Assembly: GCA_024220505.1 (NCBI GenBank)
Contig: JAKZZE010000009.1
Location: 72,001-136,000, forward strand
Origin: Rhizopus arrhizus
Taxonomy: Eukaryota > Mucoromycota > Mucoromycetes > Mucorales > Rhizopodaceae
Direction: 5' to 3'
Length of the DNA: 64,000 nt
Each line of letters starts with the position of its first letter. Position 1 is the stretch's first letter. Position numbers and translations under genes: made by a program. Below, piece by piece: positions 22,477 to 34,689 of this stretch. The notes under the pieces are model-generated. The model did not search any database, had not been told where the DNA came from, and saw only the letters and a list, made by a program, of their open reading frames with translations.

Positions 22477-23507
22477 ATTAATATCTACTAATAAAAAACA
22501 ATCTTAATAAAAAAAAGTCGCCTTGTTTTTTTACCCAGAAAAAAAGATGCGTAATGCTTGATACACCGCTTAATTATCATTGCTGGATATGATTCAACTC
22601 AACACTGTGCAGCCAATCAAAATAAATTGAATATCATTTGTGACAAATCACATCAAATAAACCGTACTTTGTTAAAGGTGCCAAGAAGGCTCATTGTTAT
22701 TATAATCTTTTAAATTTGCTGTATGCAAACCTATATTGACTGACCCATGCATAGAGAGCTCAAAATTATGGACGATACTAATATAACTTTCGCGTTTATT
22801 TCCAATTGAATATAGTACACTATACAATTAAAATGACTAAAAGTAGACAAATAAGAAGGTAAAAGTCACATTGAGATAATTAATTCACCTACAATAAAAT
22901 TTATATATTCAATTAGTTTACATATAGATAAGGTAGCGATTTTCCTTGTATGAGTGTTAAGAAAAAGACATGATAAAGAAATACAATTTGAATCTCATGC
23001 AAGCTGTTCTTTTTAAAAATTCTAGCTTTCAAAAGCTATGTTCATAGAAAAATAGTTGGTAATCTAGCAAGTTGGCTATCATTATACCTGCAATATTTAT
23101 AACTAAATGTAGTAATGCTACATTTCACCAAATACGTCCTTTTTTTTTATTTTATTTCTTTCGTCTTTTATTAAAACAACAGCTTGAGACATGGTTTCGA
23201 ATGAAAAAATATCATTACTCTACAAAAAATGTATGCTGTATACAATGATTTAATACCAATTTAAAGATAAATGCGTGGATAGAATATAGACATTCAGTGC
23301 ATCCTTTTAAGCAATATTTCATTATATCAAAAGATAATAAAAATCGTATGTGCAGTAGTCTACCAACAACAGGGATATCGCCTGACTATAACCAAAGGCT
23401 AGTGTTGATACAAAAATTCACTAACATGTAAATAGTCCCATCAAATTAAAATGCAAGCAATGGCAGTCTCCTCTGAAAGCGAAAGTAATAGATGACTTTT
23501 ATGCTTA
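22477..23507. other. Intergenic region, left flank of the Fanzor element
   Basis: No gene seen. The last 12 bases (23496-23507) are half of a 23-bp target string whose intact copy lies at 34690-34712; they end in the TA duplicated by the transposon. Confidence 0.5.
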
Positions 23508-23530
23508 CAGTGGGGCTGGTAAATTTTGTC
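23508..23530 (+). repeat. Left terminal inverted repeat
   Basis: Begins CAGTGGGGCTGG and runs through AAATTTTGTC; mirrors 28708-28730 with about three mismatches. It is preceded by the TA target duplication. Confidence 0.88.
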
Positions 23531-23535
23531 GGTTT

Positions 23536-23640
23536 AAAGAAAATAAACTTCGTTTAGCAAAAAACAAATGTCGTTTCCAGAAAAGTAAATGTCACTAACC
23601 TAAATGAAAATTTCGTTTAATACATTTATTATTGTCGCTT
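23536..23640 (+). repeat. 21-bp periodic subterminal repeats, left end
   Basis: Four degenerate copies of an AAATAAAyGTCGTTT-like unit. The central C falls at 23551, 23572, 23593 and 23614, exactly 21 bases apart, and a fifth related unit (ATTGTCGCTT) is at 23636. They are probable transposase-binding sites, two helical turns apart. Confidence 0.75.
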
Positions 23641-23740
23641 TGTATTTGTTTTATTGCAATACCTGTATTAAATGACCAAAGCGATAACCTTGGTGGATAA
23701 TTTTTTATGATTTTCCTACTTTTGTTCTACTTAAAGATGA

Positions 23741-26648
23741 TTAGTCTAAAAGACATTTTCTGGTGAAAAGGCTAGGGCGTTCGCCAGTCTTTCTCAAACT
23801 ATTTAGGATCTTGAAAAAATTCAATACGGCTGCTTGATCGCGATTCCAAAGTCTTCTTTTTATTCCTGTGGTTTGTTGTTCAAGACACGAGAGACTCTTA
23901 CACCTAGTACTGCGTTAGTAATCAAGAATTAATCTATTTTTTCTTCTTCTTCTTCTTTGGATTACCTCAGCAAACCATTGCATAGCACGTCTGGATTCTT
24001 TTTCTGTTGATAAGGGCGAGGGTTTGGCACGGTTTTGAATTTTTCTAATTCATTTTCACAGATTGGGCAATGGGAAGACGTTTTATATTCATTGATTAAG
24101 TAGACAACAAACCCGTTCTTCTTTAACATCCTGATTAACCCCTTGTTTCTTGTCGGCTCTTGATACTTGACATTAGGGGCGGACCAATCTCCAAAAACTA
24201 AGACAGCATCTTGACCAAATTTTGCTTTTAAGCTACGCACCAATTTTTGATCATTCTGGTCAAAGAAGATTTTACTTGAAAACTTCAATTTTCGAAAAGG
24301 TAAAAGTTGTAGTTTTTCTAATGCTGTACTGATAATCTTTTTGTAATTGCTTTGCTGTGGTCGTCTATACATCTCTTTTGCCAGCCCTAGAACTTTGCTT
24401 TTCTCACTATCATCTAGTCTTTCTGAAATATGCTTTTGTTGTAGCATTGTTTGTAGGTAAGTAGCATACAGTTGAGGCTTTACAGAGCTATCAGTAGAGT
24501 AATTCTCAGGTTGAGGGAAAAAACCACGGATTCTTGCTATGAACAGATTTCCATAATACAAATTACATCTTTGGTCGACTCGAAAGTCAAATTCGGATTC
24601 AGGGAAATATGTTTCTTTAGACTTTGCTGTCTCGTTTTCATAATATTCGTACAAAGTGTTTTTTACTGATGCTCTTGTTTTAATGTACTGTACAAACTTT
24701 TTCAAGTCTACAGAGTTGGATTCAGATCTAGAAAGGATTGCTTCGGCTTTCTGGACCACAAAAGATTGAGTACGCTTTCTTAAATATCTGAAGTGCCTTG
24801 AACATTTTGAGCGGTTGTTCTTGGTAAATATAAGTGTTTGTTTTTCTTCAGCAGTGCTGGTTTCTTTCATGCAGTACATCAAGTCCCGCCTTCCAGGATC
24901 TATCAAGACGCACTTGCCTTCAGTGCTCTTTAAGTCGGTTTGACTTAATCCTTCAATATACTCTGTTTGATTACCGTCCACTTTCTTTTCAGTGTTGGGT
25001 TTAGGCGACTTTCTGCTTGTATCAGTGTTTTGCTTTATTATGGAGACACCGACTCCATCGGTTTCGAGAGTTCCTTGGAACCGCAAAGACTTTTGAAATC
25101 CTTGATGCTTGAACGCCTTTTTATTTAGGTCTACGACGGCACCCCATGTCTCAAACTTGCTTCCTGTTTTTAGATTCTTTTTGCTCTTGAGAACATGGTG
25201 ATGAATTATTTTGCTATCCAACGTCATGTAGCAAGGAATAAAGGTGGTACGTAGCGGGAAACAAGCAAACTGTTTCATCTGTTCAGCTTCAGACAATTCG
25301 GCAAGTCTGAAGAAGGCTTTAAAATGGTTTTTTGGATTAGCCATAATGTCATAGTAAATTGAGTTCTTTTGAAAGGTGTAGCCCTCTGGGTAGCTTGAGA
25401 GAAAACCATTTAATTGTGTTCTTGATTGATCATCTAAAAGACCAACTTCAGGCAGTTCTTTTTTTGCGATGGCAAGCTTCACCTTATTGCAAGGTCCATA
25501 AATCTTCTCTCGGGTAGCTTCTTTTATCTCTTTACTACTAGACTTGTTTGCTTGCATTTCTCCTCTGAGACTCTCTGCCTTTTCCTTCTTTTTAAATAAC
25601 TTGTTTATCAAACCACGCAGCCTATTTCCAAAATGAGCTTTGATGTTGTTATAGTAGGCCGTTTGGATCTTCGTACACTCGTACAAGGCTATTTGCTGAG
25701 CATATGGTAAGTTGGGGGGAGTATAACCAGCATCTTCAAAGTAAGCTTCTTTATATTTTGATATCAATCGCCTATAGTTTTTTGTCGTATCCTTCAGTCT
25801 TGTGCTATTTCCACCCTTTGAGAGAACAAGACTCAGAAAAACTTCAACAAAGAAATCTTTTGTCACAAAGTTGTTCAGCGCAAAATTTTCATTTGTTGCC
25901 AGTTCTTGTAAATATATGTACTTTGTGAAGGCAAAGGTATGTGTAACTAGTAAGTTGGTAGTGTGAACCAAATCATACAATGCTTGTAAATATGCTGATT
26001 TCCAAATATTCTTTACAGTCGTTTTAATTGTCATCACACGCTTGCTTATCTTCTTAGGGCCATCTTTAATGTTACTTGCCTGGTCAACAGGCGCAGGACA
26101 AAAACTTGACTTGACAGAAGTTGCAGCTGACTTGAAAGCAGTTGGAACAGGTTTACTAGGCTTGGAGGAAGTTAGACTTGTTTTAGAAGCAGTTGTGCTT
26201 GACTCCACAGCAGCAGAACCTGATTTGGTCATACGAAAAGCAGACTTGGTTGATTCACTCAAAAAGGGTCTTTTGATGACAGATGCATCAAAATCGTCAC
26301 TGCTATATTCAAGATCATAGTCATCAAGAGTGATCTTATTGAACATGATAGTTTCATCTGTTGTAGAGATACCAGTACTACTCGTAGTAGTAACTTCAGA
26401 ATCTGTAGCTTTTCCTTTGCCTTTGAGCCTCTTTTGTAATCCACTCTGAAGAGTATTTTCCCTACCTATGATGGAGTTTCATACGTTAGACTAGCTGTTT
26501 ACCTACATCAAGTTTGACAATGCAACTTACTTTTTCTTTTTCTAGCTGTTACAACGGGTTGGAAGTCGTCGTCTGAGTTGTCTTCTACATATAGTTCAAA
26601 CGAGTCTATAACAGTATCAATTTTGTGGTCAGTGACATTTCGATCCAT
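23741..26648 (-). CDS. Fanzor RNA-guided nuclease (eukaryotic TnpB-like)
   Basis: Three exons read on the minus strand: 26531-26648, 23966-26465 and 23741-23903, giving 926 residues. The N-terminus holds basic clusters (RKRKSRE, KRLKGKGK) fitting a nuclear signal and a Ser/Lys-rich tail. The RuvC-like nuclease is complete: RuvC-I CVLIDPGRRDLMY (D562), the VLVFGDWSAP strand (D799), LINEYKTSSHCPICENELE with the displaced catalytic Glu (E832) and first zinc Cys pair, then CNGLLR and, in the last exon, CKSLSC (second Cys pair) and LWNRDQAAVLNF with RuvC-III Asp (D895). These are the Fanzor hallmarks. Fanzors cut DNA guided by an omega-RNA. The exon 2 frame reaches a TAA only because it runs into the second intron (23904-23965). 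No damage is visible. Confidence 0.92.
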
Positions 26649-27281
26649 TATTAGATATGGAGCCTACCGTTTTCGCTCTTAGATGGCTTCTTTTGATTTG
26701 AAGAGAATAAAGTATCCTTTTGCTTTCCTTTCATTTTCTAATGTGTTTTCACGAGTGAAATGTACAAACAAAAAGAAAAAATGTCTTCAGAAATTGATTT
26801 AAATGTTAAAAGGAAGTACTCTCATCCCATTTATACAGATTTATTCAAACACAGCTACAACCGAATAATAGCAATGCGCCTACAATGAGCTTACACCATA
26901 TAATAGCTTGTAACAGAAGATACTTGTTTTCTAGATTCACATAGAATAGTAGTTACACATAGTAGGTAGGATTTGAGAAGTTATTGGCGTCTGAATGTGT
27001 CAAGTTCTTTATACTTTTTCATCAAACCTCAATGCTAAATATGTTAAGAACAAACTTGATAAGCATAAAATGTTGGACCGTCATCTTGTAATGGCACTGC
27101 ATAATGATGATATATTAACTGATAAAAATATCCATTAAAAGCCCTTTGCTGAGACCAATAAAACTGTTTTAATCATACCAATTCTCGCAAGGATTACATT
27201 CTAAAAAAAGTATGGTGTTATGAAACTATCATAGTATGATTTTAAAAGCATGTTCACATGGTGTTTTATTACAACAGTGGA
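26649..27281. other. Spacer between Fanzor and transposase genes
   Basis: About 630 bases of AT-rich DNA with no frame of note. It should contain the Fanzor promoter. Confidence 0.4.
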
Positions 27282-27710
27282 TTATTTGACTAGAGAAGCC
27301 ATAAAGAACTTGATTACAAGCATCAGCACTTCGATTCGATAAGTTTTCATTCGACAATGTTTGAGCTTTCCTTTAATTATAGTCTAAAACTGCTCAATTG
27401 GGTTAAGCCCTGGCGAACAAGGAGGTAAATACGTTACTCTATAACCTCTACTCTCAATTTTTCTTATCATTGGATGAGACTTATTAATAGTACAGTAATC
27501 CATTACAAGGTATCTACCCATAAGACTTTCGTCCATGTCCATGATATCAAGAAGCTCGTTTATAAATCTTACAAAGTGGGCAGTAGCTGTACCTTTTGCT
27601 ACTGGCTTGTTACTCTCTATGGCAGTACTCTTCTCCACATCAACGTACTCTATAGTAGGCTCTTCAATAATAATGTCGTCTGCTCTTTGCTCTTTGCCTC
27701 CTGCAAGCTT

Positions 27711-27744
<34 letters not shown>

Positions 27745-28455
27745 TTTGGCTGTCTTTAATGCAGCCTCATCAACAAAAATGCGGTTCTTAGTGTAACCCA
27801 GATCCGAGCCTTTTCACTTCATGAACCATTCGTATCTCGTTTGCAAGCTATTGTCAAAGTTTCTTGTCATAGGATCGAAGGTTGGTTTCTTTATTGAAAT
27901 GAGCATGTTGTTTCTCAAGTGGTGGTTCATTTGAGACGTTGAAATCTTCAAGTCCTCAAACTGCGATTTCCGAGAAACAATAATGTCATCAGCACAAAGC
28001 TGTGAGTCTTTTTCTATTATTTGTTGAATGTGCTGCTCATGCTCAGGAGTTAGTGAGTTAGGTCGGCCGGGATTTCTTTGCAACTTTTTGTAAGCTACCT
28101 TCCCAGTTTCTTGATAGTGTTTCCATCAGCGCATAGCAGTACGAGGATTAATTCCAAGATCCTTTGCATGCAACGTCACTTCCTCTTTCCGTAGGACCCT
28201 CGATCATTCAGTCAATAAATATCTCTCTGGTTTGGTCGTTGTAGTCTTTGTAGACGCTGATCCCTTGACCACTTTTATAGCCTTTTTTGTTGAATCTTTT
28301 ACAGTAGTTTCTTTCTCTGCTGGTTTGAGACTCAGTTAGGACTTTTGGCTCGTTATGGTTTCAAGTATTACGTTTGGATCACTGATTTCGGTTAACACAC
28401 CTTCTATCGGGTCAGAGCCTCTCTTTCCATCCTTATTGTAGGTATTATTGTGTTC
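27282..28455 (-). pseudogene. Decayed DD34E Tc1/mariner transposase
   Basis: One conceptual frame on the minus strand shows an N-terminal helix-turn-helix part (LHAKDLGINPRTAMR), a GRPNSLTPEHEQHIQQI linker, and all three catalytic positions: Asp in IFVDEAAL, Asp in YLVMDYCTINKS and Glu in LPPCSPGLNPIEQF with 34 residues between the last two. At least four in-frame stops break it (28204-28206, 28126-28128, 27814-27816, 27384-27386), and a 31-base A/T run (27713-27743) has been inserted or expanded inside the frame. The pattern of TGG to TGA or TAG changes points to true decay and not to sequencing error. The intact family mobilises DNA by cut and paste into TA sites. Confidence 0.85.
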
Positions 28456-28620
28456 ATCTTCATAAAAAATGTATTTTTTGTCATGTTATTCAATTGTTAG
28501 AGCGAAGGGAAAGAAATAAAGCCTTTACATCATAGCCGACAATAATCCCTCAGTAACCCAATTTGACTCGGCCCAAAAAGACAAAGTAAAGTTTTAAGAG
28601 CGACAATTATTTGCTAGCAA

Positions 28621-28707
28621 ACAGCTAAACATTTATCAGGTAGTGCCGTTTATTTTTAGGTAACCGCCATTTATTTTTCGGAAGTTGCCGTTTATTTTTT
28701 CAGAATG
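28621..28707 (-). repeat. 21-bp periodic subterminal repeats, right end
   Basis: Read inward, three units of AAAATAAAyGGC type have their key C at 28688, 28667 and 28646, exactly 21 bases apart, and weaker units follow further in (28624, 28601). They mirror the left-end array. Confidence 0.75.
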
Positions 28708-28730
28708 GACAAAATTTACTAGTCGCACTG
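28708..28730 (-). repeat. Right terminal inverted repeat
   Basis: Reads CAGTGCGACTAG from the outer end inward and is followed outside by TA at 28731-28732. Pairs with 23508-23530. Confidence 0.88.
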
Positions 28731-28770
28731 TATAAAAGATTTGGAACATCAAAACCATTGACAATTGTAA

Positions 28771-30030
28771 ATGCCACCAACACGAGGTCCTTACAGAAAA
28801 GACCCACCACCTACTCTATCTACAGAGCAGTTGGCTGAGCTTGACGCTCTTTTCCAAAATTATCGTAAACAGCTTACTTGCCCTGCTTGCAAAGTGACCA
28901 CCACCTTTCATAGACACGGCTCTACTTCGCGCGACCCTACTCAACCTCAGTTTATGTGCACTTCTTGCCATAGATACATGAAAGCATACCAAATGTATCA
29001 TCTCCTCAAACTTACTGCAGCTCCTGTCGACTACCCTTCTCAGTCAGACACTATGGACTTTGAAACCCCCACACACGAAAATGACGCTAATGTAGATCTT
29101 ACAATTACTCCTGTAACGACCCCAACAGACGACTCTCACTCTGCTATTGAACAACTCCAAAAAATGGTTGCTATGTTGACCTCTGAACTTTCTAAGGCTC
29201 ACCTTGCAATTAAGAACCTTCAAACTCAACTCCAGACTCTTTCAACACAACCTACGAAAGACCCCAATTGCATCCCTGCTGCCGATTTTCCTAGTATTAA
29301 GGAATCATTGAACATCAGCAGCACCCAATTTCCTGATGCACCCTGGCACAACCAAGCTAAGGTCGACGCACTTAAACAGTCGATGCTTCGTCAACGAGAA
29401 CTTCGTCGTGTCCAACGTGAAGCTGCTGCTGCACGCTTCTTCCAGCCACCTTCTCCTAACCAAGGTTTCAAGTATCTCTATATCCCTACAAAAGCTCGTA
29501 TCCCAGTTGGTACTCTTCGCACCACATTCCGTCGTCTAGGTGTTAACAATGCCCGTCTCCTAGACATACACTATCCTGCACGCCACACAGCTGCCATTCT
29601 TATCCATAATGACTATGAAACTGAATTCACTGAACTCTTATCTAAACACCGTATCTCACCAAAAATGGACTTTGATCCCAATAGTGGCAAGACCCTCGAA
29701 GATCCTAATCTTGCAGCCCTCTCTGATGCCGAGCGCGACAACGCCGCTAGGCAACATCAAATCACCCGACTTGAACGTGCTGTACATCACATCCGCGCTC
29801 CAGTCAAGTTCGCAGTTGCTCGCTTCTTCTACGACAAGCAATGGATTTCAAAGAAGTTCTATGACACTATAGTCGCTGCTCGTAACCCCCAATTATCCAA
29901 TATCTTCGACCAATCACCCGCTGCAGGTGACAGTAACACCAATGATCCTACTGCTGACGATATCAACATGCTCACCGCCGATGACTTTGAACAGTTCGGT
30001 GATCGCGACTCTCAACCTTCTCACCATTAA
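28771..30030 (+). CDS. LINE ORF1 protein with zinc ribbon
   Basis: 419 residues, uninterrupted. Near the N-terminus two CxxC pairs (CPAC about residue 37 and CTSC about residue 64) form a zinc ribbon. A predicted coiled coil lies around residues 120-155 (MVAMLTSELSKAHLAIKNLQ). The C-terminal domain (FKYLYIPTKARIPVGTL onward) recurs in the ORF1-only unit at 33770. By analogy with other LINEs it binds element RNA as a chaperone. It ends 4 bases before the ORF2 start codon. Confidence 0.8.
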   Translation: MPPTRGPYRKDPPPTLSTEQLAELDALFQNYRKQLTCPACKVTTTFHRHGSTSRDPTQPQFMCTSCHRYMKAYQMYHLLKLTAAPVDYPSQSDTMDFETPTHENDANVDLTITPVTTPTDDSHSAIEQLQKMVAMLTSELSKAHLAIKNLQTQLQTLSTQPTKDPNCIPAADFPSIKESLNISSTQFPDAPWHNQAKVDALKQSMLRQRELRRVQREAAAARFFQPPSPNQGFKYLYIPTKARIPVGTLRTTFRRLGVNNARLLDIHYPARHTAAILIHNDYETEFTELLSKHRISPKMDFDPNSGKTLEDPNLAALSDAERDNAARQHQITRLERAVHHIRAPVKFAVARFFYDKQWISKKFYDTIVAARNPQLSNIFDQSPAAGDSNTNDPTADDINMLTADDFEQFGDRDSQPSHH

Positions 30031-30034
30031 ATTA

Positions 30035-33000
30035 ATGAGATCTCTAAAACTCTCATTATTTAATGCCACTGGAATGCCCAAACAATCTATCAATCCAATT
30101 CTGCAACTATCTCAAAACTCGGACTTACTCTTTCTCACTGAGACTTGGTTACTGCCACCCACAAAATACAGGTCTTCCTGGGTGGAATACCACACCTATG
30201 GTATACCACGGGACTCTTCTAATATCGGCCAACTTGGCTTGGCTCTCTTGGTGAATCCTCAATGCAATCTACCAGTCTACCAAATCACTCATACACATCC
30301 TTTACTAGCTAAGTACTCTTTATCAATAGTCTTAGCCTCTAAACTACTGATTCACTGCCTTTATTTACCACCTTCTTTAGAAAATAATGAAGTAACAACT
30401 ATACTTGACGCCTTACCGATGCAATACTCAAATACTACCAATACCTTTTTATGTGGCGATTTTAATGCTCGATTGGGCACTTTCACTGGTGATTCTCGAA
30501 TTGACCCCAGAGGACGAATTTTCTACAATTGGATGTGCTCTCACAATCTGATATTATGGAATCAGCGTCTCACACATGGTCAACCAACTTCCTACACAGT
30601 CCAAGGCACCAGTATCATTGACTTCTTCCTCAGTACCGAAGAACTACTCTCCCCGTCCCTAAACATACGCCATGACCTTTCACTCACTTCCAATCACAAG
30701 TTTATGACACTGTCTTTTGATGTCTTTGATGATCTTCAAGAACATCTACCTCCTAAACGCGTTACCTGGAACCTGGGCAAACTAAAAAATCCGCGCATCA
30801 GAGACTCCTACAGGGACGTATTCACTGATAATTTACCGCTTATATTACCTCCACAGTCATCCGTATCCTTTTCCAATAGAAATACAGCCTGTCAGTACAT
30901 AGATTCAATTCATGAACAGCTCTGTAACACTATATATGACAGTTTAGATACGATCTGTGGCCGACGCTCACCACCAATGGACGAATGGCTTAAGGACTTT
31001 TGGACAACAGAAATGACTGCAGCTTTTAACCGCAAAGAATACTATTACAAAAAGTGGAGGAGAGCCCGCGGGTTAAATGCACTACGGCTATGGGTATCTC
31101 ATCAGGAAGCTCAGGCTAAACTGAGACAGCTTATCCTAAAGCGCCGTCGTGAGACATGGCGCTACTTCTGCGATCAGATGGCTAACGGCACGTATACCAA
31201 GGCAGTCGCAAAATTCAGTCGCATAAGAAAAAACAGAACCCTCAAACCCACCTTTTCCCATGTGGAAGGACCCCAACATGCCGCTGATGAAATGGCTCGA
31301 CACCTTCAACAAACCTTTGCTGGTGATTTACTATCTACCACTACAGAATCAACGCCGACTACCATCAATGCGGAACCCTTTGACTCAGATGAATGCCCTT
31401 TTACAATTGAGACAGTTAACGATGCCATTGTACATCTACCTCGACGTAAAGCACCTGGTGTAGACCATCTAACTATTGAAACACTTTTGTCTCTTACGGA
31501 TCGGTTAACTCCAATCCTGGTGTACCTTTATCGACTCTGCTGGCGCTGGAGCTATACTCCCTTATCATGGCGAGTTGCCCAAATTCTTCCCATACATAAA
31601 AAAGGTCCGGTAACCGATCCGGGAAATTTTCGCCCGATTAGCTTAACCTCTATCTTCAGAAAGATCTTAGAAAAATGTCTATATCGTGACCTGGTTGACC
31701 AAAGCCCAACGCTGGACATTGCGCAAGGTGGATTCCGTGAAGCTCGTAGTACACTGGATCAAGCACTATCACTTGTAGAACTATGCTCCATCCTACGCAA
31801 ACATCATCAGACCACTCCAACATTGGCCTTTCTTGATATCAAGTCTGCCTATGACACTGTGGACCGAAACTATATATGGCAAGCTTTAGAACCGTACCTG
31901 GACCCTCCACTACTCAGCCTGCTTAAGAATATGTTTAATGACGTCCGAATTGAAGTACTTCTCGGTAATACCACCTCGGATCGTTTCTCTCCAACAACTG
32001 GCGTACTCCAAGGATCGATTCTATCTCCCTTCTTGTACTCTATCTACATCAATCAGTTGCCTAGCTTGTTACGTACCCAACCTCTGGAAGTGGACTCTCA
32101 ACCTGCTCCTATTGAGTTTGCACTATCAATTAACTGTTTGTTGTATGCTGATGATGTCGTTCTCATCGCCTCCCCTACTCAACTCCAAATGCTTCTACAG
32201 CGTTGCGAAGAACATAGTCTCCATTTGGGTTATCGTTGGAATCCTCTCAAGTGTGTAATATTGGCCCCATCCTCCGATACCCAAAACTATACACTCTATG
32301 GTACTACTATTCCTCATGAAACCTCCTTTAGTTACTTAGGTATTCCTATCAGCCCTGGTGGATATCTTGACACACAGGCACTTATCCAAAGTAATACTAC
32401 CAAAGCCCTGAAGACTATGAATCAAATGACTGCCATCGGTGTTAATTCCACCGGATTTAACAAACTTCTCTCAGTACGATTCTACTCTCAAATAGTGCGT
32501 CCTCAACTTGAGTACGGTCTTGCAATCAGTGCTGTGAAATATAAAGATTTCCAGAAGCTGGAATCATGTCAAAATCAGTGTCTACGTCAGATCTTTGGAG
32601 GCAGCCCACGCTCATCCGTTAAGGTCATGCTACATCTGGTGAATCAGCCTACGATGAAAGAACGCACCCATATCTTACAAGCTAAGTTCTTGCTCCGTAG
32701 TACTAATACACCAGAGGATACCCTTATTTTTAGATTACTCCCATATATTCGCACCTCTTCAAGCCAATCTCAATGGTACAAGCTCACCACTTCTCCACTC
32801 TGGCGTCGATGTAGGGATATTGATCCGAACCAACTTAATAAACGACAGTTTAAAACTATTTGTCAAGCTCACCTACAAGAAACTCTCGAAAAAACGCCGT
32901 ACCGATACCAATTCCATCCTCCTTTCCACTTGTCGCCCCCAATTGATTGTGGATCCCATCCTCTGGCTACCGATGTCCTATGTTGAACGTAGTCGCTTAA

Positions 33001-33344
33001 TTCGCTGGCGTATGGGTTGGTTACCCGGTGGTAGACCAAAGCCGTGTATATATCACCCCCATGATCTACTTACTCGGTCACATGCTATTACTTGTCTAAA
33101 TATGCATCGACGTCTTCAATTACCAAGCACTGTTACTGATCCTTTATCTTTTCTCCTGAATATCTTGCCCACTTCCAGGAAAAAGCCAACGACACAAAAT
33201 CGATCGAAATATGCTGCTTGGTTTATACGTTGGCCAACCATTTGCCAAATTTTACATGAACTTGACTATCTTCACCATGACAAGATCGCTCCTGAGGTCC
33301 CACCCCTTGGCTCTAAACTCTTGCATTGGCTTGGCCCTAATTAA
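30035..33344 (+). pseudogene. LINE ORF2: endonuclease-reverse transcriptase with one frameshift
   Basis: Starts at the ATG just after the ORF1 stop. Endonuclease motifs: LFLTETWLL and FLCGDFNARLG. Reverse transcriptase motifs in order: LPIHKKG, GNFRPISLTSIFRKILEK, GFREARSTLDQ, AFLDIKSAYDTVDR, GVLQGSILSPFLYSIY, the active site LLYADDVVLIA and YLGIPISPGG. The frame stops at 32986, but the family's conserved C-terminus (DPILWLPM, RWRMGWLPGG, and Cys/His spacing SHAITCLNMH) continues in another frame to 33344. The shift lies at an A6 run, 32889-32894; the truncated copy at 42 kb shows the expected joint. The element is otherwise well preserved, so the shift may be recent or a read error. Confidence 0.85.
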
Positions 33345-33530
33345 TCTAGTATTGTTTGTTACTTTGTCTATCACCTCTTCCCTTCTTTACCCTTTTTCCC
33401 TTTTGCCTATCAAAAGGTTTTTAGCTCCCACCCAAATCTTGAACTGGCTCGGGCAATGCAATAATTTCATATTATTATGTGCTCAATTTGGGTCATTAAA
33501 ATTTTACAATAAATACATTATTATTAAACG

Positions 33531-33691
33531 TATAAAAGATTTGCTCTATCCTTTTTACCTTTTTGGCTATCAAAAAGGTTTTTAGTTTCTCTAACACTTC
33601 TTTGAACTGGCCCGGGCAATACAATATGTCAAATATTATGTGCTCATTTTGGGTTTTAAAATTTTTACAAATAAAAAAATTATTCTTTAAT
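33531..33691 (+). repeat. Solo LINE 3' tail, unit B
   Basis: About 160 bases starting with TATAAAAGATTTG and holding only the family tail: CCTTTTTGGCTATCAAAAAG hairpin, GGTTTTTAG, TTGAACTGGCCCGGGCAAT and TATGTGCTCA. It is either a severely 5'-truncated copy or a SINE-like unit. Confidence 0.7.
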
Positions 33692-34689
33692 CGTATAAAA
33701 GATTTGGAAATTCTCTTTCGCTTCCCCAACACTTTTGATAGTTTTTTCCTTTTAAGGAAATAACCCATCATGTCCACCCACCTTCAAACCATTCAACGAT
33801 TACAAAATGAACTCGCAATCGCTAATGCCAAGATACACCAGTTGCAACAGGAAAACGCTTCTTTGCGGAAGCAAGTATCCTCTGAACCCACCCCAACTGC
33901 AAACTCCAGTCCTCCTTCTGAATCTACTCCCCCCTCCTCCAAACGTCCACGCTCCCCCAGCAATGATGCTGCTCCTCCCACAACCAAGGTATCTAAACTT
34001 CCGAATCCCAAACCCAAACACAGTTTAGCTGCCATTGCTCGGCAATTTTCCTCTCCTACTGCTCCTTCCAGCTTCAAGTTTATTCACGTTCCCATTCACC
34101 GTCGCCTCCCCATCCATCAACTCCGTGCTAACCTTCGTGAGTTGCACATTAACACACGCCGCATTCTGGATATTCAATATTCAGATCGAAATGTGGTCAG
34201 CTTCCTTATCCATACCGGTTTCGAACCTGAGCTCCGTTCTCAGCTGTACAAACACAAAATCACTAATCGTGACGACTTCGACCCTCTGAGCCCCTCCATC
34301 ATTCGTGATCCTACACTTCTCAATGAATCCATTGAAAGAAAAACCAAACTTGCTCGTCATGTATTCCTCCAACGACTTGGTTCTGCTTTCCGCCGTCTCA
34401 AGGCTCCTCTTTACAACGCTGTCACTAACTACTTTCTCCAATCAGGACTCATAGACCTCAATTTCTTGGAGTCTTTTGATCTCGCTCCCCCTCACAACTA
34501 TCACAACCCTCTCCTAGACAAGATCTAGAGCTCTTTTCTACCTCTTCCCTTCCCTTTCCTTTTTCCTTTTTGATTATCAAAAAGGTTTTTAGCACTCTTT
34601 TATCCTCTCTTTGATCTGACCCGGGCAATTCAATCCTAGAAGTGATTATGTGCTCAATTGGGTTATCTTAAATTTAAAATAAAAATACT
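33692..34689 (+). mobile_element. ORF1-only LINE derivative, unit C
   Basis: A 1-kb unit starting TATAAAAGATTTGGAA, with one ORF1-like gene and the same conserved 3' tail (hairpin near 34560-34585, CCCGGGCAATTC, TATGTGCTCAATTGGG). It has no reverse transcriptase and so must use one supplied in trans. Confidence 0.75.
33770..34528 (+). CDS. ORF1-type protein of the non-autonomous LINE unit
   Basis: 252 intact codons. Residues 1-40 form a leucine-heptad coiled coil (TIQRLQNELAIANAKIHQLQ). A Pro/Ser-rich linker with a basic patch follows. Residues about 100-245 (FKFIHVPIHRRLPIHQLRAN to the LESFDL end) align in order with the C-terminal domain of the ORF1 at 28771. The zinc ribbon of the longer protein is missing. 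A role in packaging its own RNA is inferred. Confidence 0.75.
   Translation: MSTHLQTIQRLQNELAIANAKIHQLQQENASLRKQVSSEPTPTANSSPPSESTPPSSKRPRSPSNDAAPPTTKVSKLPNPKPKHSLAAIARQFSSPTAPSSFKFIHVPIHRRLPIHQLRANLRELHINTRRILDIQYSDRNVVSFLIHTGFEPELRSQLYKHKITNRDDFDPLSPSIIRDPTLLNESIERKTKLARHVFLQRLGSAFRRLKAPLYNAVTNYFLQSGLIDLNFLESFDLAPPHNYHNPLLDKI

Follow-up and report, generated by a model that had tools for sequence, protein, structure and literature searches.

An intact Fanzor1 gene in a Tc1/mariner-like element with a decayed transposase in Rhizopus arrhizus

In the obligate mobile element-guided activity (OMEGA) systems, TnpB takes its guide from one end of the element and finds its target-adjacent motif (TAM) at the other. 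Fanzor1 genes carried by mariner elements, with or without a transposase, were described in 2013 (PMC3627910). PpFz1, the Fanzor1 of Parasitella parasitica, is a tested RNA-guided nuclease that requires a 5'-ATN motif and has known structures (PDB 9cf0-9cf3; PMC11423790). SpuFz1 elements have a conserved CA before the left repeat, and their motif is CATA (Saito and others, PMC10432273). According to a figure legend, target duplications of eukaryotic elements become part of the RNA scaffold (Yoon and others, PMC10711439). Hence, the presence of Fanzor1 in mariner elements is already known, and the nuclease nearest to ours, PpFz1, has been published with its structure. Here, we analyse an element at positions 23508-28730 of a window of 64,000 nucleotides (C41:72001-136000) from the genome of Rhizopus arrhizus (50.26 Mb, 41 contigs). 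Literature searches on Fanzor with Rhizopus, Parasitella or mariner transposons returned no title or abstract opening on this element. We think it somewhat probable that an intact Fanzor1 gene has been kept in this Tc1/mariner-type element, whose transposase has decayed, and that it favours filled sites by cutting empty ones.

The Fanzor gene and its carrier

The features of the element are as follows.
23490..23505, minus strand: predicted guide AGCATAAAAGTCATCT, the first 16 nt past the TA
23506..23507: TA target-site duplication on the guide side (Fanzor-3'); predicted to form the final two bases of the guide RNA scaffold (role suggested by PMC10711439)
23508..28730, minus strand (Fanzor sense): whole element, CAGTG...CACTG, Tc1/mariner type
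23508..23600, minus strand: terminal repeat on the Fanzor side; also the predicted 3' part of the omega-RNA scaffold
23741..23903, minus strand: Fanzor exon 3, with second half of zinc ribbon, RuvC-III WNRD and stop
23904..23965, minus strand: intron 2, GT...AG, 62 nt
23966..26465, minus strand: Fanzor exon 2, with REC, WED, RuvC-I, FRI insertion, RuvC-II and first half of zinc ribbon (domains named by alignment to PpFz1)
26466..26530, minus strand: intron 1, GT...AG, 65 nt
26531..26648, minus strand: Fanzor exon 1
27387..28188, minus strand: decayed IS630/Tc1/mariner transposase gene, with helix-turn-helix (HTH) and DDE_3 pieces
28638..28730, minus strand: TAM-side terminal repeat with 21-bp subrepeats
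28731..28732: TA target-site duplication, Fanzor-5' (TAM) side
28731..28734, minus strand: TATA, predicted TAM

Judged by its sequence, the element is IS630/Tc1/mariner-like: it has TA duplications (23506-23507 and 28731-28732), terminal inverted repeats (20 of the 23 outermost bases are alike between its two ends) and a DDE transposase match. Across the family, with ends assigned by alignment, 32 of 37 ends on the TAM side and 48 of 50 on the guide side carry TA. An earlier reading of the window, made from the sequence only, had proposed a TA-flanked 5.2-kb Tc1/mariner-type carrier with terminal repeats and an intact Fanzor, and these claims are borne out, the Fanzor being of the Fanzor1 type. 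Its complete 926-residue frame also holds, as three minus-strand exons, provided that two introns with GT-AG borders, 65 and 62 nt long, are removed. We located all the residues it had invoked: D562 (RuvC-I), the displaced glutamate E832, the zinc ribbon C839/C842/C874/C879 and D895 (RuvC-III). Their roles, which we presume in part, were assigned by alignment to SpuFz1 and PpFz1. The Fanzor1 motif D-X(125,275)-[TS][TS]-X-X-[C4 zinc finger]-X(5,50)-RD (defined in PMC3627910) is found as D562, 272 residues, T835 S836, the same four cysteines and R894 D895.

Among relatives with a solved structure, the nearest to the protein is PpFz1 (E=0, approx. 66% identity over 689 columns), while SpuFz1 matches at E=2.8e-41 with approx. 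20% identity. The profile and fold check proposed with the earlier reading returned a RuvC-core fold that matches solved Fanzors: Foldseek hits of the predicted structure (modelled without exons 1 and 3; mean pLDDT 61.6) include 9cf1 (E=4.6e-59), 9ceu (2.9e-15) and 9cer (6.3e-7). In curated Pfam the sole match was PF07282 (E=0.03, below cut-off), and no model named Fanzor matched the protein in Pfam or NCBIfam. The bacterial TnpB profile PF01385 had no match in the whole genome at E<=0.001, which is uninformative because Fanzor is too divergent. The protein relatives closest to it belong to R. arrhizus and R. delemar, with identities reaching 93%, and to Parasitella. PF26935.1 is precomputed on most of 56 protein relatives; the Pfam version used here gave none for the window Fanzor. 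On this sequence evidence, the Fanzor is a real and intact gene of the Fanzor1 type. It carries an FRI-type RuvC insertion with a PQP loop (GFFPQPE, P690 and P692), which places it by sequence in the FRI-bearing Fanzor1 subgroup; cyclophilin binding is predicted from its relative. A 14-row Fanzor alignment has PQP at the loop in nine rows, PRP in one and neither in four. The FRI domain is described only from Parasitella and Rhizopus in the available text of PMC11423790; our alignment also has the insertion with PQP in proteins of Helicostylum pulchrum, Mucor flavus, M. mucedo and M. saturninus.

A protein search of the genome gave at least 74 Fanzor matches, many with stops, and a DNA search at least 70 pieces, among which we count no fewer than 36 distinct places (each list being a lower bound). 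When seven copies were aligned, the position, GT and AG of both introns were kept in all of them, and the whole frame (2.7-2.8 kb spliced) in five: the window, C37:1553180 and C34:1972521 with 926 residues each, and C2:768813 and C7:1247310 with 909 each. The Fanzor is broken in C40:1223671 and C41:665150. Some internally deleted copies (L042-L051) retain the Fanzor-side end and resemble the ghost elements of SpuFz1.

The earlier reading also placed both genes on one strand. The transposase remnant does share the minus strand with the Fanzor, but this second gene is not intact. In the window it matches DDE_3 (3e-10) and has two in-frame stops and two frame-breaking indels relative to the longest copy. 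Among the 12 copies that we read, window included, none has a complete gene: a stop directly after NPIEQF is common to all, and 11 have additional stops or frame-breaking indels. The genome also has a Tc1/mariner family without Fanzor (the control family below), whose intact 443-codon frame extends well past the point of this motif. Since all 12 copies share the stop and the transposase of the control family runs past it, every copy read lacks a complete transposase. The least damaged one, C37 (P0001), is open for 265 codons and has HTH-like and DDE_3 matches (PF13358, 3.6e-11; the IS630 model NF033545, 3.1e-20, is below its cut-off). Among the matches listed, the best candidate for an intact partner with the same ends was C12 (L052), open for 318 codons, and we rejected it: it stops at the common stop, is internally deleted, and has an altered second catalytic motif (by eye). 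Inside the window remnant lies a 39-base T run (27709-27747, 89% T match), whose length varies among copies.

Two further claims are not borne out. The empty-site control is not confirmed: within the window, no second match exists for either 500-bp flank; in the assembly, the 200-bp left flank occurs once, and the right flank matches elsewhere only from base 15 onward, where a long interspersed nuclear element (LINE) starts. Nor is this a clean natural system: flank searches of the window and the assembly found no empty site of the window copy, all 12 copies read, this one among them, have a broken transposase, and the family occupies at least 36 places.

Site preference, selection and the proposed role of the nuclease

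The retention that we favour would work as follows. By analogy with relatives, the Fanzor-3' end of the element would give rise to an omega RNA that the protein binds, with a scaffold ending in the terminal repeat and TA; the next approx. 14-20 nt, of host flank, would serve as guide. If the duplication is inside the scaffold, the guide would begin after it. The inserted element would part the motif from the guide match, so that the two are adjacent only at an empty site. The nuclease would cut such sites (allelic, sister or post-excision) and repair would copy the element in. The Fanzor might thereby raise the retention and spread of the element, while the jumping itself would depend on a transposase supplied in trans.

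The insertion sites show a bias. TATA makes up the four outer bases at 25 of 32 Fanzor-5' ends and at 12 of 48 Fanzor-3' ends (Fisher test, 3.5e-6). These counts are limited to ends with TA, which drops five of 37 TAM-side ends (including the remade end of C2) and two of 50 guide-side ends; the remade end of C11 is scored as non-TATA, and two guide-side rows (L065, L066) were fetched as TAM-side and are possibly misassigned. Because many ends rest on short alignments, we also made a strict set, where TATA is present at 8/10 Fanzor-5' and 6/27 Fanzor-3' ends (0.002). The Fanzor-free control family has TATA at 4/15 of one end and 4/16 of the other (excluding three spurious matches away from the termini; L112, L113 and L125 have no clean control end). 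A second Fanzor family of this genome has 6/9 vs 2/12 (0.03), for sites read by eye, counting six copies at one common site as one and leaving out three with disturbed ends (L131, L143, L145). TATA is thus preferred beside the Fanzor-5' end only, which fits the ATN motif of PpFz1. The source of this bias can be selection by the nuclease or an unsymmetrical transposase.

Selection also differs along the element. Among the five intact copies (10 pairs), the ratio of nonsynonymous to synonymous substitution rates (dN/dS) is 0.34-0.48 for the Fanzor and 0.44-1.20 for the transposase remnant, and summed dN over summed dS for the transposase is 0.76 across all pairs of the 12 copies. Hence, taken over its full length, the Fanzor is under stronger constraint than the transposase, and five intact frames with such ratios are more than chance. 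Ignoring gaps, the mean pairwise difference is 3.5% in exon 2 and 8.0% in the transposase region, and 0.4% in the Fanzor-side terminal repeat vs 8.4% at the other end. When gaps are counted, the difference is 2.6% for positions 23523-23615 and 8.5% for the TAM-side end. Genome-wide, identity to the window is at least 94% for all 40 guide-side repeats that were scored (75 candidates), and it is under 90% for 21 of the 40 scored on the TAM side (62 candidates); the two lists cover different elements and include some partial matches. The Fanzor-3' terminus, where relatives lead us to expect the guide RNA, thus appears conserved.

Several observations weigh against the explanation that we favour. 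Constraint is uneven: in the four pairs that involve the window copy, the first 180 residues have a dN/dS of 0.85-1.49 and are not visibly constrained. Ignoring gaps, the difference is 5.9% for exon 3 and just 3.1% for intron 1, which differs no more than exon 2. With gaps counted, some gene stretches differ by as little as 1.5%, and the TAM-side end by just 3.8% once the C2 copy with its remade end is omitted. Consequently, the contrast between the ends is weaker than its headline values: the Fanzor-3' end is among the best-kept stretches, and the contrast is suggestive rather than strong. In the predicted omega RNA, only two of 51 pairs have two-sided changes among 20 aligned copies, which is no real covariation, and single-strand folds at several lengths disagree, so we claim no structure. 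We identified no trans-acting transposase with the same ends among the matches listed, out of 197. Finally, a transposase alone can also yield both the TATA asymmetry and the odd junctions described below, and the control family does not fully separate the two origins because its two ends are nearly identical.

An alternative view, which we regard as rather unlikely, is that the Fanzor is cargo without present role, with intact copies recently descended from few active masters and TATA reflecting the target preference of an unsymmetrical transposase. The two terminal repeats differ (that of the window on the TAM side has approx. 74% similarity to guide-side repeats in three other copies), so that a transposase could orient them differently; most Fanzor matches listed have stops or span part of the protein, and the seemingly unconstrained N-terminus also agrees with cargo. 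Yet the Fanzor is more constrained than the transposase in the very same five copies, the Fanzor-free mariner family shows no end asymmetry (an imperfect control, given its nearly identical ends), and SpuFz1 elements have CA ahead of TA at the same place, CATA being their assayed motif (PMC10432273). It is very unlikely that the element is still autonomous, through a truncated transposase that ends past the catalytic glutamate and works or is read through. The open 265 codons of the C37 copy and the stop shared by 12/12 copies, with which the family must have multiplied, speak for it, but 11 of these copies have further lesions, the dN/dS of the transposase exceeds that of the Fanzor, and the control transposase extends well beyond the stop. 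Domestication of the Fanzor as a host gene would account for purifying selection, but we give it hardly any credence, as there are many divergent copies in many places and most matches listed are broken or partial.

Repeats at damaged TAM-side junctions

Both ends were read for 26 elements of the family, and eight have a damaged TAM-side end (by eye). In C2, TATA-GGAGCCTAA adjoins a TAM-side end that lacks its first 8 bases, and TA-GGAGCCTAA lies past the guide-side end; the repeat, TAGGAGCCTAA, follows the guide-side end and recurs behind a TA, immediately ahead of the shortened TAM-side end. C11 has ACAAAGACT at both ends, and its junction holds CAAAGACT. In C3 the repeat is TAACAGT (ACAGT), which may alternatively be a remnant of the terminal CAGTG. 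Counted from TA, the repeats are 11 nt in C2, 9 in C11 and 7 in C3. We required a repeat to begin at TA and end near the junction, a criterion set after C2 and C11 had been noticed. Cross-pairing of ends gave at least 7 nt in 2/650 cases and at least 8 nt in none of 650, and shuffling gave at least 9 nt at 0.00025 per element. The 8-nt matches of C21 and C41c start away from TA and were taken as chance.

In all three copies TATA is just ahead of the repeated bases. As motif and guide match are adjacent only in an empty site, this would be the site that was broken, inside the guide match. One may then tentatively see C2, C11 and perhaps C3 as fossils of Fanzor-driven homing, although we hold this to be doubtful. 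After a cut within the guide match, the right side would have recombined through the flank, copying the element in, and the left side would have been sealed by microhomology (CTA and GACT, found at two junctions). Aberrant one-ended transposition, producing a long target duplication without any Fanzor, is a quite plausible origin that still falls short of probable: the guide-side end joins, the free target end is extended by a few bases, and microhomology joins it to the other element end. This predicts the same letters, and it fits the CTA and GACT microhomologies. Against it, TATA precedes the repeated bases in all three cases, as the motif of the nuclease would require; but there are only three, and the point is weakened by the other interpretation of C3. 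The junction evidence (two copies, perhaps three) suggests a new lead. If the homing interpretation is true, genomes could be mined for scars of a eukaryotic RNA-guided nuclease spreading its transposon in nature.

Neighbouring elements and comparison with known systems

A non-LTR (long terminal repeat) retrotransposon, recognised by eye, occupies 28745-33693, with open reading frames at 28771-30030 and 29927-32986. An exact 14-bp repeat, TATAAAAGATTTGG, flanks it (28731-28744 and 33694-33707), and the first copy abuts the end of the Fanzor element. The 5' end of this LINE has three other matches of 100% identity (C12:1762491-1762676, C34:1841103 and C1:1839913), one of which is separated by 108 bp from where a deleted Fanzor element (L052) ends, and another by approx. 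600 bp from a match to a related transposase (C34:1840183). A non-random neighbourhood of LINE and Fanzor or transposase elements is possible. The second Fanzor1 family (L097, L098) is 2.86 kb, with Fanzor only and no FRI insertion, and has nine matches at 98-100% identity. Six of its copies (C2:1446844, C12:1736553, C23:226197, C3:1019500, C9:108986 and C20:409817) share a LINE 3'-end piece on the TAM side and differ in their guide-side flanks, which recalls the 5'-variable MCi-2 family (PMC3627910). A check of LINE retroposition as their possible origin found no clear target duplication at C2, C12 or C23. The Tc1/mariner family with the intact 443-codon transposase (L095, L096) was perhaps recently active, since two copies are 99.1% identical.

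Ideas on what Fanzors bring to eukaryotic transposons, namely retention and homing, can be tested on this family by population genomics and simple assays. It combines five intact copies of the nuclease gene with a decayed transposase and a readable site bias, and the genome also contains a second Fanzor family that lacks the cyclophilin-binding insertion.

The closest described system is PpFz1, with which the window Fanzor shares approx. 66% identity, the REC/WED/RuvC/TNB layout and the FRI insertion with its cyclophilin-binding PQP loop; the window flank, ATA, fits its ATN motif. PpFz1 is from another Mucorales genome, and its omega RNA of 75 nt has been tested, whereas that of the window element is predicted only. 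SPu-1/SpuFz1 of Spizellomyces punctatus (PMC3627910, PMC10432273) likewise has a Fanzor1 between inverted repeats and a TA duplication; a conserved pair of bases precedes its left repeat, ghost copies are many, and its omega RNA spans the right-end repeat, matching the layout predicted here. It differs in its motif (CATA, here TATA), in identity (approx. 20%) and, as far as the available text goes, in being described as one single open reading frame with no transposase. PGv-1, PUl-1 and PUl-4 (PMC3627910) also have Tc1/mariner ends and TA duplications; the first two carry Fanzor1 and a mariner transposase, PUl-4 Fanzor1 alone, and some of their coding sequences are degenerated. Unlike the window element, they come from an algal virus and an oomycete, and we liken them by description, not by sequence. 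Finally, TnpB of IS607/IS605 (OMEGA) is a RuvC nuclease guided by an element-end RNA, with motif and guide at opposite ends (PMC10711439), as proposed here, but the window element differs in having introns, a larger protein and a carrier of the DDE type where those systems have a Y1 or serine transposase.

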